Source of the DNA: Patescibacteria group bacterium
GTDB lineage: Bacteria; Patescibacteriota; Minisyncoccia; UBA6257; 2-01-FULL-56-20
Direction of reading: 5' to 3'
Assembly (NCBI GenBank): GCA_028865305.1
Contig: JAGWKM010000013.1
Location: forward strand, 1 to 33,018
DNA length: 33,018 nt
A model generated the notes under the pieces. It was not told where the DNA came from. It saw nothing but the letters and a program-made list of their open reading frames with translations, and did not search any database. Below, piece by piece: positions 2,926 to 16,974 of this stretch. The translations under genes and the position numbers were made by a program. How positions within the stretch are numbered: the stretch's first letter is position 1; each line of letters starts with the position of its first letter.

Positions 2926-3137
2926 TTTAATCCTTCCTTTGATTTGGCTATAATTTCTCCGATTCGCTTTATTTGCATGCGTTGGGTTTCGTACCACTGG
3001 GGGTTGAATAAGGTGTCGGTAAAAACGTCCAATGCCTCATTTAATTTGACCATTAAGGCCAATGTTTCCTCCATATTGGAAATTCCTTTTTGGAAATTTT
3101 TCAGTTGTTCCTTTTTGATTCTTCGGCGGCTTTTCAT
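2922..3137 (-). CDS. small basic coiled-coil protein
   Basis: This 71-aa protein starts MKSRRRIKKEQLKNFQKGIS and continues as a long charged helix with heptad-like hydrophobic spacing (MEETLALMVKLNEALDVF). Two in-frame ATGs compete: the one at 3137 overlaps the MuB stop (ATGA) and lies seven bases after AAGGAGG, so it is preferred to the one at 3143, which is too close to the SD. Placement directly after the MuB-type ATPase suggests a partner in transposition or host takeover, without direct proof. Confidence 0.65.
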   Translation of the reverse strand: MKSRRRIKKEQLKNFQKGISNMEETLALMVKLNEALDVFTDTLFNPQWYETQRMQIKRIGEIIAKSKEGLK

Positions 3138-4312
3138 ATCCATTCCTCCTTCGGTTGGGATTGTTTCACGATGCGAAGATGCGCATCGATAAAGTGGGAC
3201 CAATTCAGGGGTATCCCCGACTTGCGGGCGATATTTCCGGCGTAGCGCAGGCGTTCCGTGATTGCCAGGAGTGCTTCGTTTTTGGCGAGTTGGCGAAGGA
3301 CTTCGCGGGGCTTTTCTTCGATGGTTTGCAGGCGGTTTGAAGAATCGCGGAAACGGATTTGCACTTCGAGATCACTGGCAGGGAACTCCAGTCCGTTGTG
3401 CTTGAGGATCGCGGTGAGGTCATTGATAGTGGGCATGTTTGGAAGTGTCAATTTATGGACAGAACGGCGCCAGACCTGTTGGAGCTCTTTTTGGCTGGCT
3501 GCACGAACTTCATCCAAATTTGTAAAGCACCAGACCATTCCACATTTCGTTACGTCATGAATTTCCCGGATGGCTTCGACACAAGCAAAAAAACTTCCCT
3601 TACGATATGTATTCGCTAGAAGGTGCAGCTCATCTAGAATGATGAGCATGTCGGGCGTGATGGCTTTTTTGATCCGCCGGGTGAGATCCGCTGTGTTCGA
3701 TTTTTCGCTGATACTGAGCTCCCTGGCTATGGCGCGGACCATTCCACCGAGGCCGCTGGCGGTTTCCATGCGGATATAGGTGGTTTTTCCGTGATTGTTT
3801 TTTGGAGTGTAATATTTTTCGAGAGCCCAAGTTTTCCCGATGTGGGAAGGACCAACGAGGAAACTAATTGTCTGGCTCTCCCTTGCGAGGTCGCAAAGGG
3901 TTTCAATACGCCCAAGCGTCTCGGTTTTGACCAGTTTCGTTTCCCCGGCGAGGAAACGCTTTTTCTCCAAGGCCAAGAAATCCTTGATGGATTTAATCAG
4001 GGCCGGGCTTGGGGACAATGTGGCGTTGGTTTCCGGGTGCCGATATTTGCCGGCCAGGATTTTGTAGATAGTGTTATCCGAACTCCCGACGCGAATGGCA
4101 AAATCCGGTTTCGGCACGGGATGCAGTGGATCGGTACACCAGAGGAAAGCGGAGACGATGGCTTCCTGGGCGTCGGCGGAATAGGGCGCGATGTTGGCGC
4201 GGAGGGTGTCGAGGCTGAATTGCCAGGAGGCCCGGGATTCGTTGCCGACGATGCTTTGCTGTTCGTCCTCCTTTATTTCAGGGCGCGATGGGGGCAGTTT
4301 GATTTGGTCCAT
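3134..4312 (-). CDS. MuB-like AAA+ ATPase, transposition target selector
   Basis: This 392-aa protein has a Walker A motif GPSHIGKT at residues 154-161, a Walker B motif MLIILDELH (D227, E228) and a polar residue (N265 in CFTNLDE) in the sensor-1 place. Residues about 71-92 (FAIRVGSSDNTIYKILAGKY) form a helix-turn-helix, matching the N-terminal DNA-binding domain of MuB-type proteins. MuB polymerises on target DNA with ATP, delivers the target to MuA and protects the element from self-insertion. The gene lies 30 bp after the transposase gene, as in Mu, and has an AAAGGA SD six bases before its ATG. At 392 aa it is longer than Mu MuB (about 312). The C-terminal region after the ATPase core is the less certain part. 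Confidence 0.88.
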   Translation of the reverse strand: MDQIKLPPSRPEIKEDEQQSIVGNESRASWQFSLDTLRANIAPYSADAQEAIVSAFLWCTDPLHPVPKPDFAIRVGSSDNTIYKILAGKYRHPETNATLSPSPALIKSIKDFLALEKKRFLAGETKLVKTETLGRIETLCDLARESQTISFLVGPSHIGKTWALEKYYTPKNNHGKTTYIRMETASGLGGMVRAIARELSISEKSNTADLTRRIKKAITPDMLIILDELHLLANTYRKGSFFACVEAIREIHDVTKCGMVWCFTNLDEVRAASQKELQQVWRRSVHKLTLPNMPTINDLTAILKHNGLEFPASDLEVQIRFRDSSNRLQTIEEKPREVLRQLAKNEALLAITERLRYAGNIARKSGIPLNWSHFIDAHLRIVKQSQPKEEWI

Positions 4313-4342: not shown

Positions 4343-6475
4343 TCAGGTGAGAAGGTCGTCGATATTGCCGAGGTCGTAGATTTGGTCCTCCTGGCGCGAC
4401 TCGCTCGGGACGGCTTGCGCCATGCGAGATTCGCCTTCCAATTCCTGGGCGGCTTCCGCACCAGGAGGAATGTCTTGGATCAGTTCGCCGGCATCACCTG
4501 CAAACCGCTCGATGTTGGCGCGGGTCTGGGCGGATTGGGCGGCGCGATCGCGGGCTGCTTGGATTTGTGGGCCCACTGTGCCAGCGTCGGCCACGGGGAT
4601 TTGCACAGCCTGGCGCGTGAGGAATGGCGCGAGCGAGGCGCGCTGGGTGCGGGCGTGTTGCAGAGCCAATTTTTTGCGCACGGCATCGGCGCGCATATCC
4701 TCGCCGCTGGCCCCTAGCCGGTCGAGGGTTGCGACACGCGATGCCGTGCAAATGAATTTATCCGGGTTGCCCTTGGAGAGAGAATATACCACCACGTCGG
4801 TGTCGGGATCGTAATCGTTCCAATAAGCGACCACGCGACGGCCTCGGTGATTTTCCAGGGCAGCGGGATTTGAGTAGGTATAATGAGTCTGGTATTTGCC
4901 GCTCCCGACGGTGATGCGGATTCCGTTGCGGGTGACTTGCAAAACGCGATAGGCGGCGCGGTACATCCATTTGTGGGAATCGGGCATGACCGGCATTTGC
5001 GGGGCGTCTTCGGCCCATTTATCCGCAGGCGCGCGGCCTCGCAGGATGGTGCCGTCGTTGCGCTCGTGGTTCAGATTGTTCATCACCTGTTCCAGATGCT
5101 TGGTGTAGTCGGCGATGTGCAGGAAATATTGGCTGGGGTGGGCTTTGCCGGCGCGGACCTGGGCAAGTTGCTGGCGCACCTGTTCGGGGCAATCTTTCAT
5201 TTCCATCCGGCCACAGAATCCTCGCACATGATCAGCGGCATGCTGCAAGCTGTTGAATGCCGTTTCGATGATTTTACCGCGTGGGCTGCGGGTGTGAATG
5301 AGTTTCACCCCCAGGCTTTTCAGCCCACCAAAACGGGCTTCGTCTTCAATGCCTGTTTTGTGGCCGCGCACCAGGTTGCTTTGCCAGGAACCGCCCTCGA
5401 ATATTGCGGTCTGGAAAAGGCCGTAAGTGTCGAAGACATCTCCAACGAGGCCCCAGACGTCATCTTTGGTGTACTGGCCTTTGCTTCGGATCACGGCGCG
5501 GATGTTGAGCCAGGCCATGGAGCCGACGTCCATGGCGGCCAGGATTTGGGGGCGGATCAGGAGCCAGCCGTCTTCGTTGGGCCATTCAGTCCAGACATAA
5601 CAATTCGCGGTCATGTCGTCCGCAGTGAAGGCTTGGCCTGCTTTCAAATTCTCGTAGCTGCATTCTGTGTAGGGGCCGTCGAGTTTGGCCGCTTTCGGGC
5701 CAATCTGGATCAGGCGCGTGGCGAGCGGTGAAACGCGTTCGCGGATGGCAGAGCGAATGCTGGGCGGGACGTAGCTCTTGCTCGCATGGCCACCGTGCAT
5801 CCACATGCGACTGCTTCCTTCGATGGTCGGGTTATTGAGCAAGCTGTCGCGATAGCCGCGTGCGACGTTGAGGCGACCTTTGATGCCGCGTTCGACGGAG
5901 CTTGCGGCAGCGGCGAGGAGATTGGTTTCTTGCAACTGGCTGGCGTAGGATTTGCGGCCCACGCGACCGCGCTTCTGTTCGACCAGGCCGTCGAGGCCGC
6001 TGGCCGCATAACGATCGCACCATTTGCGGAGGCTGGAGACGCTGATCCTAAAGAGGGGATTCTCGCGTTGCATTTGGGCTGCAACGAGGGTTAAAGCGGT
6101 TTCCTTGCCGGTTGCAGGGGCATTTTCCTGGACGAGCTGGACGGCGCGTTCGCGCATCAATACCAAGGCGCGGGCCTGCTCGCTGTGGGCCAGATCGGAG
6201 TAGCGCACGAGCGGGGCGGTTGTTTCGGCCACAGGCGCGGGAGCGGCCACGATGATGCCGGCAATGTGCGCGGGTGGAATGAAGACGAGTTTATTGCCAA
6301 GCATTCGCGCCGGCCAATTTTCGGCGGCAGCGGTGCGCTTGACCATTTTCTTGCCGGCTTCGCCTGGCTGTCCAATGGCCAGGGCAATTTCGGCGGCGGA
6401 ATAATATTGGTGCGGATCGGCGCTGGCTGTCGCCGGCGCGGGTTGGTCCATTGAGACTGGGGGCACAGTGTTCAT
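4343..6475 (-). CDS. MuA-like DDE transposase
   Basis: This 710-aa protein is slightly longer than Mu MuA (663). Residues about 23-66 form a winged-helix Mu-type DNA-binding domain (YYSAAEIALAIGQPGEAGKK). Residues about 145-175 hold further HTH domains (SVSSLRKWCDRYAASGLDGL) that should grip the phage ends. The catalytic RNase H-like core carries D286 (FTADDMTANCYVW), E360 (AIFEGGSWQSN) and E404 (SPRGKIIETAFNSLQ). In MuA the triad is D269-D336-E392, so the second acid appears to be Glu instead of Asp here. A beta-barrel-like region (about 540-600) and a basic helix (MRADAVRKKLALQHARTQRA) follow, the latter similar to the MuB/ClpX-contacting tail. It cuts and joins the phage ends to target DNA for integration and replication. 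No SD is seen before the ATG at 6475. Confidence 0.9.
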   Translation of the reverse strand: MNTVPPVSMDQPAPATASADPHQYYSAAEIALAIGQPGEAGKKMVKRTAAAENWPARMLGNKLVFIPPAHIAGIIVAAPAPVAETTAPLVRYSDLAHSEQARALVLMRERAVQLVQENAPATGKETALTLVAAQMQRENPLFRISVSSLRKWCDRYAASGLDGLVEQKRGRVGRKSYASQLQETNLLAAAASSVERGIKGRLNVARGYRDSLLNNPTIEGSSRMWMHGGHASKSYVPPSIRSAIRERVSPLATRLIQIGPKAAKLDGPYTECSYENLKAGQAFTADDMTANCYVWTEWPNEDGWLLIRPQILAAMDVGSMAWLNIRAVIRSKGQYTKDDVWGLVGDVFDTYGLFQTAIFEGGSWQSNLVRGHKTGIEDEARFGGLKSLGVKLIHTRSPRGKIIETAFNSLQHAADHVRGFCGRMEMKDCPEQVRQQLAQVRAGKAHPSQYFLHIADYTKHLEQVMNNLNHERNDGTILRGRAPADKWAEDAPQMPVMPDSHKWMYRAAYRVLQVTRNGIRITVGSGKYQTHYTYSNPAALENHRGRRVVAYWNDYDPDTDVVVYSLSKGNPDKFICTASRVATLDRLGASGEDMRADAVRKKLALQHARTQRASLAPFLTRQAVQIPVADAGTVGPQIQAARDRAAQSAQTRANIERFAGDAGELIQDIPPGAEAAQELEGESRMAQAVPSESRQEDQIYDLGNIDDLLT

Positions 6476-6681: not shown

Positions 6682-6936
6682 TCAAGCTTTGTTGAGTAGC
6701 CGGTAATGGCTATTCCGTTTGCGGCTTCCCCGCTCAACTTTATTTTCGATTTTGAAACCGCGATGGCGAAGTTCATCTATCCGGGAGTGGATATTTAAGC
6801 TCCCGCTGAGAGCGACAAGTTCCAACATACTGACCCATTTTCCCCTCGCATTGCGGAGGGAGTTGAGGATGAGAGAGCATTGGCTGGCATCCTGGATGCG
6901 GCCCGCTTTTTTGAGAAGGTCGTCAAAATGGCTCAT
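6682..6936 (-). CDS. winged-helix DNA-binding protein (HTH_39-like)
   Basis: This 84-aa protein has the pattern SQCSLILNSLRNARGKWVSM, LELVALSGSLNIHSRIDELR and GFKIENKVERGSRKRNSHYR. It is a small winged helix in which 'RI.ELR.RGF.IE' forms the recognition helix and wing, typical of HTH_39 phage proteins that normally sit in early or replication operons. It probably binds DNA near the early genes; the target is unknown. It is separated by 6 bp from the upstream gene, and its stop lies 2 bp before the next ATG. Confidence 0.7.
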   Translation of the reverse strand: MSHFDDLLKKAGRIQDASQCSLILNSLRNARGKWVSMLELVALSGSLNIHSRIDELRHRGFKIENKVERGSRKRNSHYRLLNKA

Positions 6937-6942
6937 AAGATT

Positions 6943-7239
6943 TTAAGGGAGGTTTTGCCAGGCTGCATCGGAGAAATTTTTCAGGAGGATTGAAAAACTT
7001 CCAATCTCGGTGGAATTTATCAATTCCCTGATCCTTTCGATTCTCTGGATTAAACGATCGACGGTTTGTTTTTCGGAGGGATGCAAGACATCTGTGGCCT
7101 GTAATTCCCTCAGTGCATTTTCGACGGAAGTTCTGAGAGATACAAAATCGTTGTAGGTTTTCAGGAGGTCCGAAGCCGAACGATTTAAATCAAAAATAGC
7201 CTTTTCGGCTATTTGGATTTGCTCATCGGATGGTCTCAT
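6943..7239 (-). CDS. hypothetical helical early protein
   Basis: This 98-aa, almost entirely helical protein contains a long amphipathic segment (SVENALRELQATDVLHPSEK and QTVDRLIQRIERIRELINST) that may form a coiled coil. The ATG at 7239 overlaps the upstream stop (ATGA), showing translational coupling. No family is recognised. Confidence 0.65.
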   Translation of the reverse strand: MRPSDEQIQIAEKAIFDLNRSASDLLKTYNDFVSLRTSVENALRELQATDVLHPSEKQTVDRLIQRIERIRELINSTEIGSFSILLKNFSDAAWQNLP

Positions 7240-7844
7240 ATTTTTTGGGGGAGTTGGGCGCGGCTGGCGCGGACGCGGTCCAGGGCGGTTTCGAGTTTGG
7301 TTTCAAGGTCCCCGAGGAATTGATCAGGGTCGGAATCTTCCGGCATCACGAAATTGTAGTTCTCCTCGCCCAAATGGGTGAGGGCTTCGATGTGCTTTAC
7401 CGAGTCGGTAAAATTGAATTCGATCTGGGTTGAACCCAGCATTTTGCGCTGGCGGTATTTCACTTCATCGTATTCGCCGAATTTCCTCATTTCCCCAACC
7501 TGGCGGAGTAGTGAAATGTAACCCTTTGGCGACTGCAGAACGAAAGCCTTGGCTTCACGGAGGAGTTGCTCTTCCGACAGGATTTTCGGGTTTTGGCTTT
7601 TGACCCAACCAAGGACCTGGTCAGCAAACTCGATATACCGGCGGATGGTTGTCTCACTTATTTCACCGCAATAGGCCTCCATCATTTCCCCCCAGGCCCC
7701 ATGCTCACATTCAGCCTGGGCTTTGCCGAAGAAAATCCCGGCGAATAAAGCCGCCTCTTTGGAGGCTTGAAAATTTTGTCTGAATTTATTGTGGAGTTTT
7801 ATGGCATCCACCATCCACTTGGAGGCATTATTGGCGATTTTCAT
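7236..7844 (-). CDS. DUF3102-like early protein
   Basis: This 202-aa protein has residues about 27-80 reading ASKEAALFAGIFFGKAQAEC, EHGAWGEMMEAYCGEISETT and IRRYIEFADQVLGWV. This matches the DUF3102 pattern of a helical 'A...G..L..AK....HG.W..W....C..S..TA.RYM..A' domain found in phage and plasmid proteins that resemble ParB/KfrA-type DNA-associated factors. The C-terminal half is acidic and unrecognised. It is the second gene of the leftward operon: its start overlaps the end of the RHH gene and its end overlaps the next start. A DNA-associated role is inferred from the family only. Confidence 0.7.
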   Translation of the reverse strand: MKIANNASKWMVDAIKLHNKFRQNFQASKEAALFAGIFFGKAQAECEHGAWGEMMEAYCGEISETTIRRYIEFADQVLGWVKSQNPKILSEEQLLREAKAFVLQSPKGYISLLRQVGEMRKFGEYDEVKYRQRKMLGSTQIEFNFTDSVKHIEALTHLGEENYNFVMPEDSDPDQFLGDLETKLETALDRVRASRAQLPQKI

Positions 7845-8026
7845 TTGGTTTTCTTGGAAAGAATTTCAACCTGACCTGTCCGTTCCCATTCCTTGAGTTG
7901 GTTTTCCACGGCATTCCTGATGATGAAAGAGCATGTCAGGCCGTATTTCACGCGAATGGCATCAAGCCTCTTTTTGGTCTTGTTTGAGAAGCGAACAGGT
8001 ATGGATGAATCTAACGCAATCTTCAT
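7841..8026 (-). CDS. ribbon-helix-helix regulator, first gene of the early operon
   Basis: This 61-aa protein starts MKIALDSSIPVRFSNKTKKR and continues RLDAIRVKYGLTCSFIIRNA with a charged tail. A short beta strand (SIPVRFS), then helix A (NKTKKRLDAIRVKYG) and helix B (SFIIRNAVENQLKEWER), is the ribbon-helix-helix (CopG/Arc) layout, which binds DNA as a dimer. The longer frame back to 8104 runs through the promoter and was rejected in favour of the ATG at 8026. It is the promoter-proximal gene of the early operon and faces another RHH gene across 83 bp. It may play the part that Ner plays in Mu; this is inference. Confidence 0.72.
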   Translation of the reverse strand: MKIALDSSIPVRFSNKTKKRLDAIRVKYGLTCSFIIRNAVENQLKEWERTGQVEILSKKTK

Positions 8027-8034
8027 TCTGAAGT

Positions 8035-8053
8035 GAATGTAATACAAATGAAT
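8035..8053 (+). promoter_or_regulatory. operator-like site OL, overlapping the leftward early promoter
   Basis: The sequence fits GAATGTAnnACAnnnGAAT (fixed positions: GAATGTA, ACA, GAAT). The same 19-bp pattern occurs in opposite orientation at 8088-8106, with centres 53 bp apart, about five helical turns. The leftward promoter lies across it: on the minus strand ATTACA (8043-8038) preceded by TGT, and TTGCGC (8065-8060) 16 bp upstream. Transcription would begin a few bases before the ATG at 8026. The best candidates to bind here are the two flanking RHH proteins. Confidence 0.5.
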
Positions 8054-8074
8054 CGTTTCGCGCAAGAAAAAAGT

Positions 8075-8103
8075 TTGTTTTTTTTGTATTCGTGTGTTAT
8101 ACA
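8075..8103 (+). promoter_or_regulatory. rightward promoter of the divergent control region
   Basis: TTGTTT (8075-8080) and TATACA (8098-8103) are separated by 17 bp, with an extended -10 TG at 8095-8096, so this is a good sigma-70-type promoter. The expected start of transcription falls at about 8109-8111, on the ATG of the RHH gene (8110), which has no SD. The transcript would therefore be leaderless or nearly so. Confidence 0.55.
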
Positions 8104-8106
8104 TTC
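8088..8106 (-). promoter_or_regulatory. operator-like site OR, overlapping the rightward promoter
   Basis: Read on the minus strand this is GAATGTAnnACAnnnGAAT, the mirror copy of the site at 8035-8053, with all 14 fixed positions conserved. It covers the -10 hexamer of the rightward promoter, so a bound regulator would block it. Confidence 0.5.
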
Positions 8107-8109
8107 CTC

Positions 8110-8391
8110 ATGGCAGTGAATACAACCATGACCGTCCGCTTGAGTCAGGAGTCGTCCGAGCGGCTAAAACTCATTTCCATTCAGAGCGGACTTAGCTTTT
8201 CGGACTTGATCCGAATTGCGACAGAAAAAAATTTGGATGAAGTGGAATCGGCTGGAGGAATTTCCATTCCTTTGCGCGAACCCACTGTCCCTTACCGAAC
8301 GAATTCCGAACCATCCACTCAATCCCAAGCCCAAACAGCCAGCGGCAAACTCCTCAAAAAAGCAACCAGTGGTGTGATAAAAAAACCCTGA
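8110..8391 (+). CDS. ribbon-helix-helix regulator, likely phage repressor
   Basis: This 93-aa protein begins MAVNTTMTVRLSQESSERLK and continues LISIQSGLSFSDLIRIATEK. The strand TMTVRLS, helix A (QESSERLKLISIQSG) and helix B (SFSDLIRIATEKNLDEVE) are the ribbon-helix-helix fold. A low-complexity, Ser/Thr/Gln-rich linker and a basic tail follow. The frame opens at 8092, but the ATG at 8110 coincides with the predicted transcription start and was chosen. Being transcribed away from the early operon, it is the best candidate for the lysogeny repressor (the role of Mu c), although Mu-like repressors are normally of a different fold. Its tail also ends in a basic stretch, KLLKKATSGVIKKP. Confidence 0.72.
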   Translation: MAVNTTMTVRLSQESSERLKLISIQSGLSFSDLIRIATEKNLDEVESAGGISIPLREPTVPYRTNSEPSTQSQAQTASGKLLKKATSGVIKKP

Positions 8392-9558: not shown

Positions 9559-10050
9559 ATGACAAACTTTAAAAGACACCAAGAAGTGAGCGACATCCAA
9601 AGCGAAACCGAATTGCAGAATTGCGCTCTACTCGCAGCTTATATTTTCGGCAAACCCGGAGGATGGTTCTTCCTTTGCAATGGAAGTGTTGATGGATTCA
9701 GTAATGACTACGCGTTAATTCATTCTACGCCAGGAAATATTGAATGCCACTCCGTTCAAGCGGTTTATTTGAACGGGGACGAATTATTTCAATCAGAATT
9801 GAGTGAAATTCTGGAGGATCAAGCAGCCAAAAATGGTGGTGAACGCCCCCCGGTTGAGACATTCACTGATGAGGAAAAGCAAGGTGCCATTGGGGCCCTC
9901 CGCGAAGCTGCCGAAGCTGAAGAAGTGGAAGATTTGGAGGAGTGGCTGGAAACCCTTTGCAATAATAGTCCCTCGGATGTTTCGTTTTGCGATTGGGCTG
10001 CCGTTGCGGCTGAAATAAAGCCCGAGAAAAATGAAGCCCAAAAAAAATAA
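9559..10050 (+). CDS. hypothetical acidic cargo protein
   Basis: This 163-aa protein begins MTNFKRHQEVSDIQSETELQ. The N-terminal half (LLAAYIFGKPGGWFFLCNGS, SNDYALIHSTPGNIECHSVQ) looks like a compact alpha/beta domain. The C-terminal half is a very acidic helix (LREAAEAEEVEDLEEWLETL). No family is recognised. The strong acidity recalls DNA-mimic anti-defence proteins, but that is only a resemblance of charge. Its end overlaps the start of the RHH gene at 10031. Confidence 0.65.
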   Translation: MTNFKRHQEVSDIQSETELQNCALLAAYIFGKPGGWFFLCNGSVDGFSNDYALIHSTPGNIECHSVQAVYLNGDELFQSELSEILEDQAAKNGGERPPVETFTDEEKQGAIGALREAAEAEEVEDLEEWLETLCNNSPSDVSFCDWAAVAAEIKPEKNEAQKK

Positions 10051-10282
10051 ACCCGGGGCAGGTCGTCCCCGCCTCAAAAACCCGGCGAACCTGTACATCA
10101 GCATCCGGGTCACTCCTGAGCGCAAATCCGCATATCAAGCGGCTGCCGCGCCTGACTCCATCACCAAATGGGTCGTGCGCACGCTGGATGCTTCCATCGG
10201 GAAATCCGGACCGTTTGATTCAGGTTCGGACCCTCTTTTTTCTCTCATTCTTTCTCCCAAATCCGCCACGTGGCGGATTTGA
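10031..10282 (+). CDS. third ribbon-helix-helix protein
   Basis: This 83-aa protein begins MKPKKNKPGAGRPRLKNPAN, with an AT-hook-like KPGAGRPR, then a strand and two helices (LYISIRVTPERKSAYQAAAA and SITKWVVRTLDASIGK), as in phage RHH proteins. The last codons (KSATWRI and stop) are written by the 22-bp palindrome of repeat copy B, so the C terminus may have been formed by insertion or duplication of that repeat. It overlaps the end of the upstream gene and probably regulates the cassette. The site it binds is unknown; the palindromes at 8866 and 10259 are plausible. Confidence 0.65.
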   Translation: MKPKKNKPGAGRPRLKNPANLYISIRVTPERKSAYQAAAAPDSITKWVVRTLDASIGKSGPFDSGSDPLFSLILSPKSATWRI

Positions 10283-11171: not shown

Positions 11172-11984
11172 ATGTCCACAGACCTACCAGGAGTGAGCGG
11201 GAACGCGCCAGGCGGTAATGGCAGCATTACCAGCGCGTTCCCGCCGCCAGGGATGCCAACAGTGGCATTGGAGATGGCCCGGCTTTGTGCGGAGGCATAT
11301 CAAACCCACACAGTAGAGGACAGGGCCACACAAGCGGCAGCCAGCGTGACCCTCATTCAAGGCCAAATTGGTGTGAAGATCGTGGCGGCCTTCAAGGGGA
11401 GCAGCACTCCGCAGGATTTCATCCAGGACGCGAAGTTCGATTTGCGTATGCTGGGGTATTCCAATGCAGCCCATCCAGTGCGCGTTCATGCCGGGTTCCT
11501 GGAGGATATTTCGGCCATTGATACGGGCGTGACCCAACAAGTGCGGGGATTGATGAATCGGTTTCCAACGGCGAAATTGTGGATCACCGGACATTCCCTG
11601 GGAGGTGCGCTGGCGTTGCTCTATGCGGTTGAGGCGGTGCGGCTGGGCTTGCCGATCGCGTGGGTTTACACCTTTGGCCAGCCCCGCGTGGGCGATGCGG
11701 CTTGGGCTGCCATGTACGGTGGGTTTCTGGGACGCAAGACCGTCCGTGTGGTGGATGAGAATGATATTATCCCGCGCACGCCGCCCTGGTTGATGGGGTA
11801 CCGACATGCCGGCAACCTGGCTCTGATTGAGCCTTGGAATCATCTGGCATGGAATCCCGGGCTGCTTCGCAAATTGGCCAGCGATACCACCGGACTCTAT
11901 GAAGGCGTGATGCAACGCCAGGATGTGCTGATTCGAAACCATTTCATTGAGCAATACATTGCGCGGTTGCGCGTGTTGAATTGA
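11172..11984 (+). CDS. class 3 lipase (alpha/beta hydrolase)
   Basis: This 270-aa protein has the nucleophile elbow GHSLGG at residues 140-145 (Ser142), a following YTFGQPRVGD strand-loop typical of Lipase_3, Asp198 in DENDIIPRTPP, and a C-terminal His257 (RNHFIEQY) that would complete the triad. Fungal-type class 3 lipases hydrolyse acyl esters of lipids. There is no signal peptide, so it acts in the cytoplasm or is released at lysis. It stands where Mu-like phages often keep lysis genes, next to a membrane-anchored coiled-coil protein, so membrane disruption is a reasonable inference. No SD precedes the ATG at 11172. A second ATG at 11253 just before the conserved part is possible, which would place the strong hairpin at 11197-11244 in the leader. 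Confidence 0.82.
   Translation: MSTDLPGVSGNAPGGNGSITSAFPPPGMPTVALEMARLCAEAYQTHTVEDRATQAAASVTLIQGQIGVKIVAAFKGSSTPQDFIQDAKFDLRMLGYSNAAHPVRVHAGFLEDISAIDTGVTQQVRGLMNRFPTAKLWITGHSLGGALALLYAVEAVRLGLPIAWVYTFGQPRVGDAAWAAMYGGFLGRKTVRVVDENDIIPRTPPWLMGYRHAGNLALIEPWNHLAWNPGLLRKLASDTTGLYEGVMQRQDVLIRNHFIEQYIARLRVLN
11197..11244. other. very strong hairpin at the start of the lipase gene
   Basis: GCGGGAACGCGC (11197-11208) pairs perfectly with 11233-11244 (12 bp). Inside, GGTAATG (11214-11220) pairs with CATTACC (11225-11231) around a GCAG loop. The combination gives 19 base pairs in 48 bases, inside codons 9-25 of the annotated frame. It may control translation or mark a later start. Confidence 0.6.
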
Positions 11985-13175: not shown

Positions 13176-14602
13176 TCGCACGACGCACCATCCGTTCATC
13201 CAGTGTCAGGCCCTCGTATGTGCCGGAGGATTTCGCCGGTCGCTGCAAGATTTTCCCGGCTCCAACGGCGGATGGTCGTGAACCGATCTTGCTGGCTTAC
13301 CAAGCCGACTGGGTGCTGGACAATTCGCGGCTCAAGATCGCAGAGAAGTCGCGTCAGATCGGTTGGACATGGAGCGAGGGTTACAAAATCGTCAGGGAAA
13401 AATCCCAAATGGAATCACGGCTGGACCATTGGATCAGCAGCCGGGATGACATCCAAGCGAGGTTGTTTCTGGAGGATTGCAAGTCTTTTGCAGGACTGCT
13501 GAATATCGCTGCCAAGGACCTTGGATTGATGGTGATTGATGACAAATGCAGTGCGTATGTTTTGAGTTTCGCGAACGGTTTGAGGGCGCACAGCATGAGC
13601 AGCAACCCCGATGCTCAGGCCGGCAAGCGCGGTGGGCGCACGCTCGATGAATTCGCTCTGCATCCTGATCCGCGCAAGTTGTATTCCATCGCTTATCCTG
13701 GTATCACCTGGGGAGGTTCACTGAGCATTTTCTCGACCCATCGAGGGACGGCCAATTTCTTCAATGAGCTGATCAACGAGGTGAAGCACAAGAATAATCC
13801 GAAACAATTCTCCCTGCACAGCGTGACATTGGAGGCCGCTCTCGCGGATGGCTTCCTTTACAAGCTGCAAAAGAAACTGCCTGCGAATGATCCGCGCCAG
13901 CAAATGGATGAGGGCGAATATTTCAACTTCATCAAAGCCGGATGCGCGGACGAAGAAACTTTTGCCCAGGAATTTTGTTGCATCCCCAGCGATGACAACA
14001 GCGCATTCCTGACCTACGAACTGATAACCGGCTGCCAATATCGTGCGGAAGAAAACTGGCAGACGGATTTAAGCGATGCGAAAGGGAAATTGTTCCTCGG
14101 CGTGGATATTGGCCGGGTGAAGGACCTGACGGTGATCTGGGTTCTGGAGCAGCTCGGCGATGTGATGTTCACGCGGCGGGTGATTGAGATGCGAAACGAG
14201 ACCTTCGATAGCCAGGAGAATATTTTGTATCCGATCCTGGCGCTGCCCCAAGTGCAACGATGCTGCATCGATCAAACCGGCATTGGCCGGCAATTCAGCG
14301 AGCGGGCTCAAAGCCGGCATGGCAAATATAAAGTCGAGGGAGTGACGTTCACCGGCGCGGTCAAAGAAGAACTGGCCTATCCATTGCGGGCGGCGTTTGA
14401 GGATCGCACGCTTCGCATCCCGGACAATGATCATGTGCGCAGTGATTTGCGGGCGATCAAGAAGGAAACCACGGCGAGCGGAAATATCCGGTTCAGCGCC
14501 GATCGCGGGGCGAATGGACATGCGGACCGGTTCTGGGCGCTGGCCCTGGCACTGCATGCGGGCAAAACCAAACAGGAAATGGGTGCAGTGGTTGATATAT
14601 GA
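13172..14602 (+). CDS. terminase large subunit (Mu gp28-like)
   Basis: This 476-aa protein has an ATPase domain with a deviant Walker A (KSRQIGWTWS, residues about 59-68) and Walker B TLDEFA (D159, E160), and a C-terminal RNase H-like nuclease with D312 (FLGVDIGRVKDLTVIW), D367 (CCIDQTGIG) and D452 (GHADRFWALALAL). Together these are the motor and cutting activities that fill the head and cleave DNA. It follows the small subunit with overlap and is followed by the portal with overlap. Mu-like terminases cut beyond the phage ends and so package host flanks; whether this one does is unknown. Confidence 0.9.
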   Translation: MIARRTIRSSSVRPSYVPEDFAGRCKIFPAPTADGREPILLAYQADWVLDNSRLKIAEKSRQIGWTWSEGYKIVREKSQMESRLDHWISSRDDIQARLFLEDCKSFAGLLNIAAKDLGLMVIDDKCSAYVLSFANGLRAHSMSSNPDAQAGKRGGRTLDEFALHPDPRKLYSIAYPGITWGGSLSIFSTHRGTANFFNELINEVKHKNNPKQFSLHSVTLEAALADGFLYKLQKKLPANDPRQQMDEGEYFNFIKAGCADEETFAQEFCCIPSDDNSAFLTYELITGCQYRAEENWQTDLSDAKGKLFLGVDIGRVKDLTVIWVLEQLGDVMFTRRVIEMRNETFDSQENILYPILALPQVQRCCIDQTGIGRQFSERAQSRHGKYKVEGVTFTGAVKEELAYPLRAAFEDRTLRIPDNDHVRSDLRAIKKETTASGNIRFSADRGANGHADRFWALALALHAGKTKQEMGAVVDI

Positions 14603-16974
14603 AACGCGCTCAAAATTTTGACGGTCGTTTTCTGGAGGTGGTTCGCAATGCGAATCCGGCGTTTCGCGGGGCGTTGCCGTCGAGCACAAAGGGAGTCTCC
14701 TCGGACGTGGCGGCTTTCCTGAGCGGGACCGATCTGGAACAAAGCGAGCGCGGGGCGCGCCTGGTGAATCCGTATGCGCAATCGGCGTGGATTTATTCGG
14801 CAGTCAGCATCCTGGCGCAGAGTGTGGCGCAAATCCCCTTTCGCATTTCCCGCGTGGCATCCGGCAATGCGCGGCAGGTGCGCCAATTCCTGGGAAGCCA
14901 GGACCCGCAGCAAAAACGCCAGGTGACCAAGGCTCTGAATGAGAAAATCCAGGAGAGCGGTCCGGTGGTGGATTTGTTTGACCGCCCGCACATCAGCATG
15001 TCGCGGGAATTATTTTGGGAATCGGTGGTGACCTGGATGGCTTTGCGTGGGGAATTTTTCATTTTCCCGGCTGACCTGATGGGCAATGCCGTGGATTTGG
15101 CCCAGGGCAAATCACCGCGCATCAGCAGCATGGTCACGCTCAGTCCTGATTTGTTCTGGCATATCGTGGTTGGCTACGAGCTGGAGGGATGGAGATACAC
15201 GGGATCGCCGTTGATCTCTCCGGTGGAGAGCCAGATGTTGCTGCCCAGCGAGGTTTGCTATTCGCGCAGCCCGAATCCGTATCTTTATTGGCGCGGCTTA
15301 TCGCCGCTGATTGTGGCCCTGGCCCCAGCGCAGACGGATTTTGCCGGCGAACAATTTCAAAAAGGATTGTGGGTGAACAATGCTGACACCGGCGTGATCG
15401 TCACCACAGAGCAGCAAACCACGGCGGAACAGCGAGCGGCGATTCTCCAGGCATTACGCGAGCGCAAGCGCAAGGCCGGCACGGCGGATCGGCCCATGTT
15501 TTTATGGGGCGGCGCGAAGGTGGAGAAGCCAACCTTGTCCATGATGGACATGCAGTTCCTGGAAACGCGCACCTTCTTGCGTCAGGAAATATTCTCCATT
15601 TTCAAAGTTCCGGAAACCCTGGCCGGCTTCACCACGGATGTGAATGACGGAGGGGCCGGAGGAAGCCTGGACGCGATCAAGGGAAGTTTCATTGAAACGA
15701 CGATTGGCGCGATTTGCAGGCGGCTTGAAAGTGCGGTGCAGCCGATCATCCGCACCTTTGGCGATGACTTGGTGGGTTGGTTCGACATTGACAGCCTGCC
15801 GATCATGCAGGCCCAGCGTCGGGCGCGGCTGAGCAGTGCGCAACAACTCTTCGGCATGGGCGTGCCAATGGCGGATATTAATACCCTCCTGGACCTCGGG
15901 CTGCCGGATCGGCCTTGGTACAAGCAAGGATGGATTCCTTTCAGTCTCCAGAATCCCATGCAGCAAGAGGCGATGCCTGGCGAAGAGGACCCGGCAGCAC
16001 AGGATGGCGATGAAGGAAAGGACGGGAAAGAAACCGGCTCAGAGGATGATAACCAGGAGAAGTCCAATCCTTTCAATCGCTTCGCCCGGCTGATGGCTGC
16101 GCCGGCGACGGTGCGCAAGCCGGATTACACCGCGTTATGGGAACAGCACATGGCCGATCGGCGCACAGCCCATAATCAATTCCGAAGCAAGGTCAGCAAA
16201 GTGTTGAATGTATTCCGTGGGCGCGCCCTGTCGAAGCTGGCGGAAATTCACCTTGAAAAATCGGCGGGACGGTTTGGCGAGATTCGGGGGGTGGTGGATT
16301 TGATTTTCAACGCCGGTCAATATGGCCAGCAACTCGGCAGCGAACTTCAACCGCTCTGGATGGCGTATTTGCAGGAAGCATCGGCCAATCTTCTCAAGGA
16401 AATCGGGTCGCCCGATGATGCCTGGAAATATCCGCCCAAAGAAGCCCTGGAATTTATTGCCGGCAGGAAACAAACCATCATGGGCTGCGGCGACACCGTG
16501 CGCAACCAGGTGAATACCACCCTGGAGGAAGGCATCACCGCGGGCGAGACCCACGAGGAACTTGCCGATCGCATCAAGGCGGTTTTCACACAAATGACCA
16601 AAACCGAAGCCAAGCGCGTGGCGATGACAGAGGTGAACATCACCTACAACCACGCGCGGCATGCGGGAATGACCCATGCCGGGATCACCCACAAATCCTG
16701 GCTGAGCAGTCATGGCCCAACCGTTAGGCCCGCGCATGCGGAGGCTGAGGCGGTCTATGAGCGCGCACCGATCCCGCTGGATGATCCTTTCGAGGTGATG
16801 GAAGAGGAGATGCTTTATCCTGGGGACGATTCCCTGGGGGCCAGTCCCGAAAACATCATCAATTGCCAGTGTGTGCAACTTGCTGCCAGGGTGAAGGAGC
16901 AGTCCCAGGGAAAAACCCTCTATACTATATATGGTCTGGGTGTGCGGGAGTACCAAAAGGAGGGAAAATCGTGA
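14599..16974 (+). CDS. portal protein fused to a MuF-type minor head protein
   Basis: This 791-aa protein has an N-terminal half (to about residue 460) that reads as an HK97-family portal (SAWIYSAVSILAQSVAQIPF, FDRPHISMSRELFWESVVTW, LETRTFLRQEIFSIFKVPET). It is followed by an acidic linker (about 460-495). The C-terminal part carries a MuF/SPP1 gp7-like domain (GETHEELADRIKAVFTQMTK, TEAKRVAMTEVNITYNHARH, and ENIINCQCVQLAA near 755-765). Portal and MuF are usually separate genes. The portal ring is the DNA gate, and MuF-type proteins aid head assembly or are ejected. An ATGA overlap with the terminase gives the start. Confidence 0.85.
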   Translation: MKRAQNFDGRFLEVVRNANPAFRGALPSSTKGVSSDVAAFLSGTDLEQSERGARLVNPYAQSAWIYSAVSILAQSVAQIPFRISRVASGNARQVRQFLGSQDPQQKRQVTKALNEKIQESGPVVDLFDRPHISMSRELFWESVVTWMALRGEFFIFPADLMGNAVDLAQGKSPRISSMVTLSPDLFWHIVVGYELEGWRYTGSPLISPVESQMLLPSEVCYSRSPNPYLYWRGLSPLIVALAPAQTDFAGEQFQKGLWVNNADTGVIVTTEQQTTAEQRAAILQALRERKRKAGTADRPMFLWGGAKVEKPTLSMMDMQFLETRTFLRQEIFSIFKVPETLAGFTTDVNDGGAGGSLDAIKGSFIETTIGAICRRLESAVQPIIRTFGDDLVGWFDIDSLPIMQAQRRARLSSAQQLFGMGVPMADINTLLDLGLPDRPWYKQGWIPFSLQNPMQQEAMPGEEDPAAQDGDEGKDGKETGSEDDNQEKSNPFNRFARLMAAPATVRKPDYTALWEQHMADRRTAHNQFRSKVSKVLNVFRGRALSKLAEIHLEKSAGRFGEIRGVVDLIFNAGQYGQQLGSELQPLWMAYLQEASANLLKEIGSPDDAWKYPPKEALEFIAGRKQTIMGCGDTVRNQVNTTLEEGITAGETHEELADRIKAVFTQMTKTEAKRVAMTEVNITYNHARHAGMTHAGITHKSWLSSHGPTVRPAHAEAEAVYERAPIPLDDPFEVMEEEMLYPGDDSLGASPENIINCQCVQLAARVKEQSQGKTLYTIYGLGVREYQKEGKS

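Follow-up and report, generated by a model that had tools for sequence, protein, structure and literature searches.

In the transposable phages Mu, Fc02/B3 and KS10, a divergent gene pair heads the early operon. A small first gene is followed by the transposition genes A and B, and a repressor occupies the slot on the opposite side. In Fc02/B3, ner comes first among the early genes, and the immunity repressor is encoded by the gene that points away from the early operon (PMC9936078). In the Mu switch, c acts as repressor of the early promoter, and Ner in turn represses c. The c and Ner proteins of these phages are HTH proteins; cultured phage KS10 encodes an HTH repressor and an HTH protein annotated as Ner-like. 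Ribbon-helix-helix (RHH) repressors, whose dimers place a two-stranded sheet in the major groove of specific operators, are known from other switches. In the immI region of phage P22, two homologous RHH repressors are encoded divergently (mnt, 14519-14770, minus strand; arc, 14861-15022, plus strand) across a 90-bp gap that holds both promoters and two operators. Maintenance of lysogeny is annotated for mnt, the gene on the opposite strand, and Arc and Mnt control the antirepressor gene ant. The small RHH protein F55 of the virus SSV1 keeps this archaeal virus in a carrier state and acts at tandem repeat sites (PMC9608457, PMC5569661). A search of freely accessible literature found no report of RHH repressors in phages of the Mu type.

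The locus studied here lies in a contig of 33,018 bases, which was analyzed over its whole length (the window). Its gene order is that of KS10: two small genes, RHH1 and RHH2, diverge at the head of the operon with the A and B genes. In contrast to the known c/Ner pairs, both products seem to be RHH proteins, paralogous to each other and provided with their own operator-like sites. In this respect the locus resembles P22 immI, with a gap of 83 bp instead of 90 bp and with operators predicted from repeats. However, RHH1 is followed by a 202-aa gene and the transposase operon rather than by ant. Membership of the Arc family (PF03869) was rejected, as the window pair gave no match whereas the P22 pair matched with E about 1e-30; hhalign between the window and P22 proteins gave E 0.24, no detectable kinship. 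The likeness of the window pair to CopG, PutA and ORF56 is one of fold and weak sequence similarity, and the roles of those proteins are plasmid copy control and metabolism, not phage switches. SSV1 F55 also differs, being a single regulator of an archaeal virus without a divergent partner. The locus is best read as the Mu c/Ner immunity switch in an RHH version. A preliminary description of this DNA had proposed a new kind of lysogeny switch, which goes too far: Arc and Mnt of P22 are a known case of homologous RHH repressors encoded divergently, and F55 is an RHH lysogeny regulator.

The phage and its early operon

Profile searches showed that the contig carries a Mu-like transposable phage, as had been proposed. 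A MuA-like transposase (4343-6475, minus strand; phrog_310, E 4e-33) and a MuB-like transposition ATPase (3134-4312, minus strand; phrog_296, E 2e-21; TniB/AAA) lie in one operon. Other Mu-type genes encode a Mu gp27-like small terminase, a large terminase and a portal fused to a Mu F-like domain. The nearest cultured phage by transposase is KS10, at only 25% identity. Early genes run leftward from 8026 and late genes rightward, with the two small genes diverging from the region 8027-8109 between them.

RHH1 (7841-8026, minus strand; 61 aa) comes first in the early operon and occupies the Ner slot. At its stop codon it overlaps with the start of the following gene (AAATGAAA), which encodes the 202-aa early protein of unknown function (7236-7844, minus strand) that is kept in close relatives. 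In these relatives the 202-aa protein is found directly before the transposition genes, whatever the type of switch. Downstream follow a 98-aa protein of unknown function (6943-7239, minus strand) and an 84-aa winged-HTH protein (HTH_39; 6682-6936, minus strand), the latter occurring alike in relatives with an RHH switch and in those with an HTH switch. RHH2 (8110-8391, plus strand; 93 aa) is the divergent regulator in the c-repressor slot.

Two further observations concern genes to the right of the pair in the window. A class 3 lipase (Lipase_3) is encoded among the late genes both in the window (11172-11984, plus strand; E 8.5e-30) and in a relative, L003 (2289-3290, minus strand; E 1.4e-25). 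An 83-aa protein (10031-10282, plus strand) has a stretch that looks RHH-like by eye (ISIRVTPERKSAYQAAAAPDSITKWVVRTL) and gave no Pfam or PHROG match.

The RHH pair and its control region

RHH1 and RHH2 are homologous, with 36% identity over 53 aa. When RHH1 was compared as a translated query with the whole bin, RHH2 was the sole other match (E 6e-5). AlphaFold models of both proteins have an extended N-terminal segment followed by two helices (residues 15-28 and 32-50 in RHH1; 13-26 and 30-48 in RHH2). The Foldseek lists were headed by RHH proteins (PutA, CopG, Arc and RHH antitoxins), none below E 0.3; such weak values are expected for single short chains. A profile built from six proteins found CopG, ORF56, ParG and PutA (E 0.006-0.015). 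The RHH2 homolog of one relative, L010, exceeded the RHH_3 cut-off, and for the RHH1 and RHH2 of the window no Pfam or NCBIfam score reached the curated cut-off. Taking homology and fold together, with an N-terminal strand, two helices and a likeness to RHH profiles, both proteins are best read as RHH proteins. This agrees with the preliminary description, which had noted that RHH proteins stand here in place of the HTH-type c and Ner. RHH2 consists of the RHH domain and a C-terminal tail modeled with low confidence (SGKLLKKATSGVIKKP). Searched with the L010 homolog, cultured phages contained no relative of RHH2.

The start codons are ATG 8026 (RHH1) and ATG 8110 (RHH2), which leaves a divergent control region of 83 bp (8027-8109) with both predicted promoters and the operator-like sites. 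The two genes had been described as facing each other across this distance, and the coordinates and sequence are right. Longer starts in the list of open reading frames (GTG 8092 and ATG 8104) are not supported, as the homologs start at the equivalents of ATG 8110 and ATG 8026.

Promoters had been proposed for both genes. For RHH2, the predicted promoter TTGTTT-N17-TATACA (8075-8103, plus strand) aligns in position with TTGCTT-N17-TATACA in L008 and TTGCGG-N17-TATACG in L010, the two relatives with a homologous pair. The predicted early promoter, TTGCGC-N15-TATTAC (8039-8065, minus strand), is weak and has a short spacer of 15 bp. The distance from its -35 box to the ATG is 39 bp, compared with 39 bp in L010 (TTGACC) and 40 bp in L008 (TTGACG). 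A strict sigma-70 consensus scan found neither promoter. The -10 boxes end 6 nt (RHH2) and 12 nt (RHH1) before the ATGs. Near-leaderless transcripts from both predicted promoters are therefore plausible, in line with the proposal that transcription starts at or just before the start codons.

The 19-bp pattern GAATGTAnnACAnnnGAAT matches exactly once in each direction, at 8035-8053 (plus strand) and 8088-8106 (minus strand), just as previously described. No other copy with fewer than three mismatches was found in the 33 kb. The first (GAATGTAATACAAATGAAT) lies at the RHH1/early promoter and the second (GAATGTATAACACACGAAT) at the RHH2 promoter; both are operator-like, with cores on the minus strand, GTATTACA at 8038-8045 in the first and GTATAACA at 8095-8102 in the second. 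As an inverted repeat, the two 19-mers are identical at 15 of 19 positions and form the best inverted 19-mer pair of the gap. Such a pair was equalled in 12 of 2000 dinucleotide shuffles (P = 0.006; P = 0.013 on a second run) and in 4 of 819 other 83-bp segments of the contig, for a motif and a length that were picked after the fact. Inverted pairs at lengths 10 and 15 were not significant. The 19-bp inverted pair is real but exceeds chance only modestly, and part of the likeness comes from the -10 hexamers themselves.

The preliminary description had called these operators mirrored. TGTAnTACA comes close to being a palindrome, so these bases allow a mirrored reading and equally one as direct copies, GTATAACA (8102-8095) and GTATTACA (8045-8038), on one strand. 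In both L008 and L010, GTAnnGCA occurs three times in direct orientation and in the same layout: a tandem pair with a 10-bp offset lies at the RHH2 promoter, and the third copy immediately precedes the RHH1 start codon. With at most one mismatch, GTAGAGCA was found at gap positions 9, 19 and 88 in L008 and 7, 17 and 100 in L010; none of 200 shuffle sets equalled this. On both strands, GTATAACA had at least two matches in each of the three gaps (0 of 200 shuffle sets). The three-phage statistic with two mismatches on one strand gave P = 0.055. There are three exact copies of CCGTATAGCA in L010 and none elsewhere in its 19 kb. The common core, GTATARCA, includes the reverse complement of a -10 box, so the conservation of the sites may partly be promoter conservation. 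On these comparisons, the relatives favour a direct over a mirrored reading of the window sites. Across the three homologous switches, the two -10 boxes lie 59, 72 and 86 bp apart, so no helical phase is kept.

Apparent exchange of the switch among relatives

Relatives were collected by aligning the transposase, RHH1, RHH2, the 202-aa protein and MuB. The transposase is common to ten loci (L003-L010, L013 and L043), which also have the 202-aa early gene or a gene in its position, and two further loci, L074 and L075, have transposases that are more distant. A scan of viral contigs with the MuB protein alone gave no relative. Broader searches of 388 genomes of the phylum and 384 of the class yielded mostly distant orphan transposases with other neighbors, which were left out except L043.

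The preliminary description suggested a search for the same RHH pair in other Mu-like phages. It recurs, divergent and in the same slot, in the metagenomic phages L008 and L010. The tree of RHH proteins is small and poorly supported, and the date of the RHH1/RHH2 duplication relative to the divergence of the phages cannot be read from it. L003 also has a divergent RHH pair (RHH_1, E 4e-9 and 4e-4), unrelated to the window pair in the tree. No kinship between the two RHH proteins of L003 was detectable. A perfect 25-bp palindrome, GGGTATAATATTGGATATTATACCC, covers the early -10 box of this L003 switch (6921-6945). In L009, two RHH-like genes (7071-7449) stand in tandem on the early strand and are not divergent, an assignment that is weak. 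Six loci (L004, L005, L006, L007, L013 and L043) have an HTH repressor in the c slot, facing left, and most of them have a small HTH-like gene facing right; the HTH assignment is weak for the repressors of L006 and L013, as it is for these small genes. The two loci with more distant transposases have HTH repressors too.

The transposase tree places the window, L003 and L005 together in a clade (100/100) that holds three different switches. The RHH kin of the window belong to a separate clade of L008 and L010, which is also fully supported. RHH pairs have filled the slot at least twice at the same locus, in phages whose transposases are 64-68% identical. Since one transposase clade contains three switches, the simplest account would be that the regulator pair and its operators were exchanged as an entire unit.

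The tail of RHH2 (SGKLLKKATSGVI; 8340-8388) resembles SSRLLKKSASAII near the end of the L005 HTH repressor (7278-7883, minus strand). The shared motif is S-x-[KR]-LLKK-xx-S-xx-I (Smith-Waterman score 46; shuffle P = 0.002, with nine pairs tested). The window and L005 belong to the same transposase clade, yet their repressors are RHH and HTH, respectively. If the resemblance is real, the DNA-binding domain may have been replaced while the tail was retained. We tentatively suggest, though we lean against regarding it as established, that immunity in this lineage is a plug-in unit. The divergent pair and its operators would be swapped together at one fixed locus, with the DNA-binding fold itself replaced (an HTH pair or either of two unrelated RHH pairs) and, in at least one case (RHH2 versus L005), the C-terminal tail kept on the repressor.

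No host flank was identified on the window contig, and the lysogenic state of its phage was not observed. Lysogeny itself is evident in L003 only, whose contig also carries chromosomal genes, including those for a GH57 enzyme and cas1. On that host contig (L063, 10823-15479), near the prophage, a gene for a large HNH protein is followed by cas1, possibly a type II CRISPR locus. The bin of the window has 2.0 Mb and 8% contamination, and the listed genomes of the same family have 0.4-1.0 Mb. As the phage relatives are located in Verrucomicrobiota and Planctomycetota MAGs, the host assigned through the bin is doubtful.

A putative immunity switch and its alternatives

The locus probably serves a Mu-like transposable phage as its immunity (lysis-lysogeny) switch and consists of a paralogous pair of RHH repressors, of which RHH2 would be c-like and RHH1 Ner-like. 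The observed basis is the gene layout, the homology of RHH1 and RHH2, the divergent pair kept in two other phages, the shared operator-like elements and the replacement of the unit in relatives. From this we infer DNA binding, use of both promoters and control of lysogeny. RHH2, transcribed away from the early operon, would be the maintenance repressor. Bound as dimers to sites that cover the early promoter and its own, it would block RNA polymerase and in this way keep RHH1, the transposase and MuB off. RHH1, co-expressed with the transposase, would act as the early regulator. It would bind the same or overlapping sites with a different preference, turn off RHH2 and, at a later stage, dampen its own operon. 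The best supported mechanism seems to be mutual repression, with two paralogous dimeric repressors acting on two promoters; mutual repression had been suggested before and is a sound deduction. The roles of maintenance repressor and early regulator are assigned by gene position in Mu-like phages with known switches.

This assignment would fail if there were no simple c/Ner division, and RHH1 and RHH2 formed heterodimers or a joint autoregulatory repressor, or RHH1 were the main repressor. RHH1 and RHH2 share homology, proteins of the RHH type are active as dimers (PMC5569661), and the sequence gives no sign of which protein maintains lysogeny. However, the repressor is the gene facing away from the early operon in Fc02/B3 (PMC9936078), KS10 and P22 (mnt), and alignments of homologs show different conserved sequences in RHH1 and RHH2 (LPEWEKxG versus LDEVExSG). 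We consider a shared or reversed role unlikely.

It is also conceivable, though quite improbable, that the pair is a secondary immI-like module and that the true repressor of the main immunity decision is elsewhere. The closest layout, P22 Arc/Mnt, does govern an antirepressor and is itself not the main repressor. However, RHH1 heads the transposase operon itself and there is no ant gene; relatives and KS10 hold an HTH phage repressor in the same slot; and no further phage-repressor-like gene was seen flanking the early operon of the window.

That the two proteins are orphan RHH antitoxins or plasmid-type copy-control proteins with no role in lysogeny is very unlikely. The weak NCBIfam likeness to RelB-like antitoxins (E 1e-3) is far below the cut-off, no toxin gene was recognized beside either gene, there was no PADLOC match, and three phages have the pair placed at the head of their transposition operon. 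Looping of the DNA between the two proteins, over mirrored operators 53 bp apart as initially envisaged, is hardly credible: although the 15/19 inverted repeat (P about 0.01) and a distance of about five helical turns would suit it, the sites of L008 and L010 are direct, the varying -10 spacing keeps no phase, and proteins of 61 and 93 aa have no confident second oligomerization domain in the AlphaFold models.

Mu-type immunity has been known as an HTH system. That RHH pairs occupy this slot at least twice, at one and the same locus, suggests a conserved layout of the switch with an interchangeable DNA-binding protein. With two proteins of 61 and 93 aa and a control region of 83 bp, the locus offers small targets for asking what a lysogeny switch needs. 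The natural swaps among its relatives form a set for testing heteroimmunity in transposable phages, in a lineage without a close cultured member.
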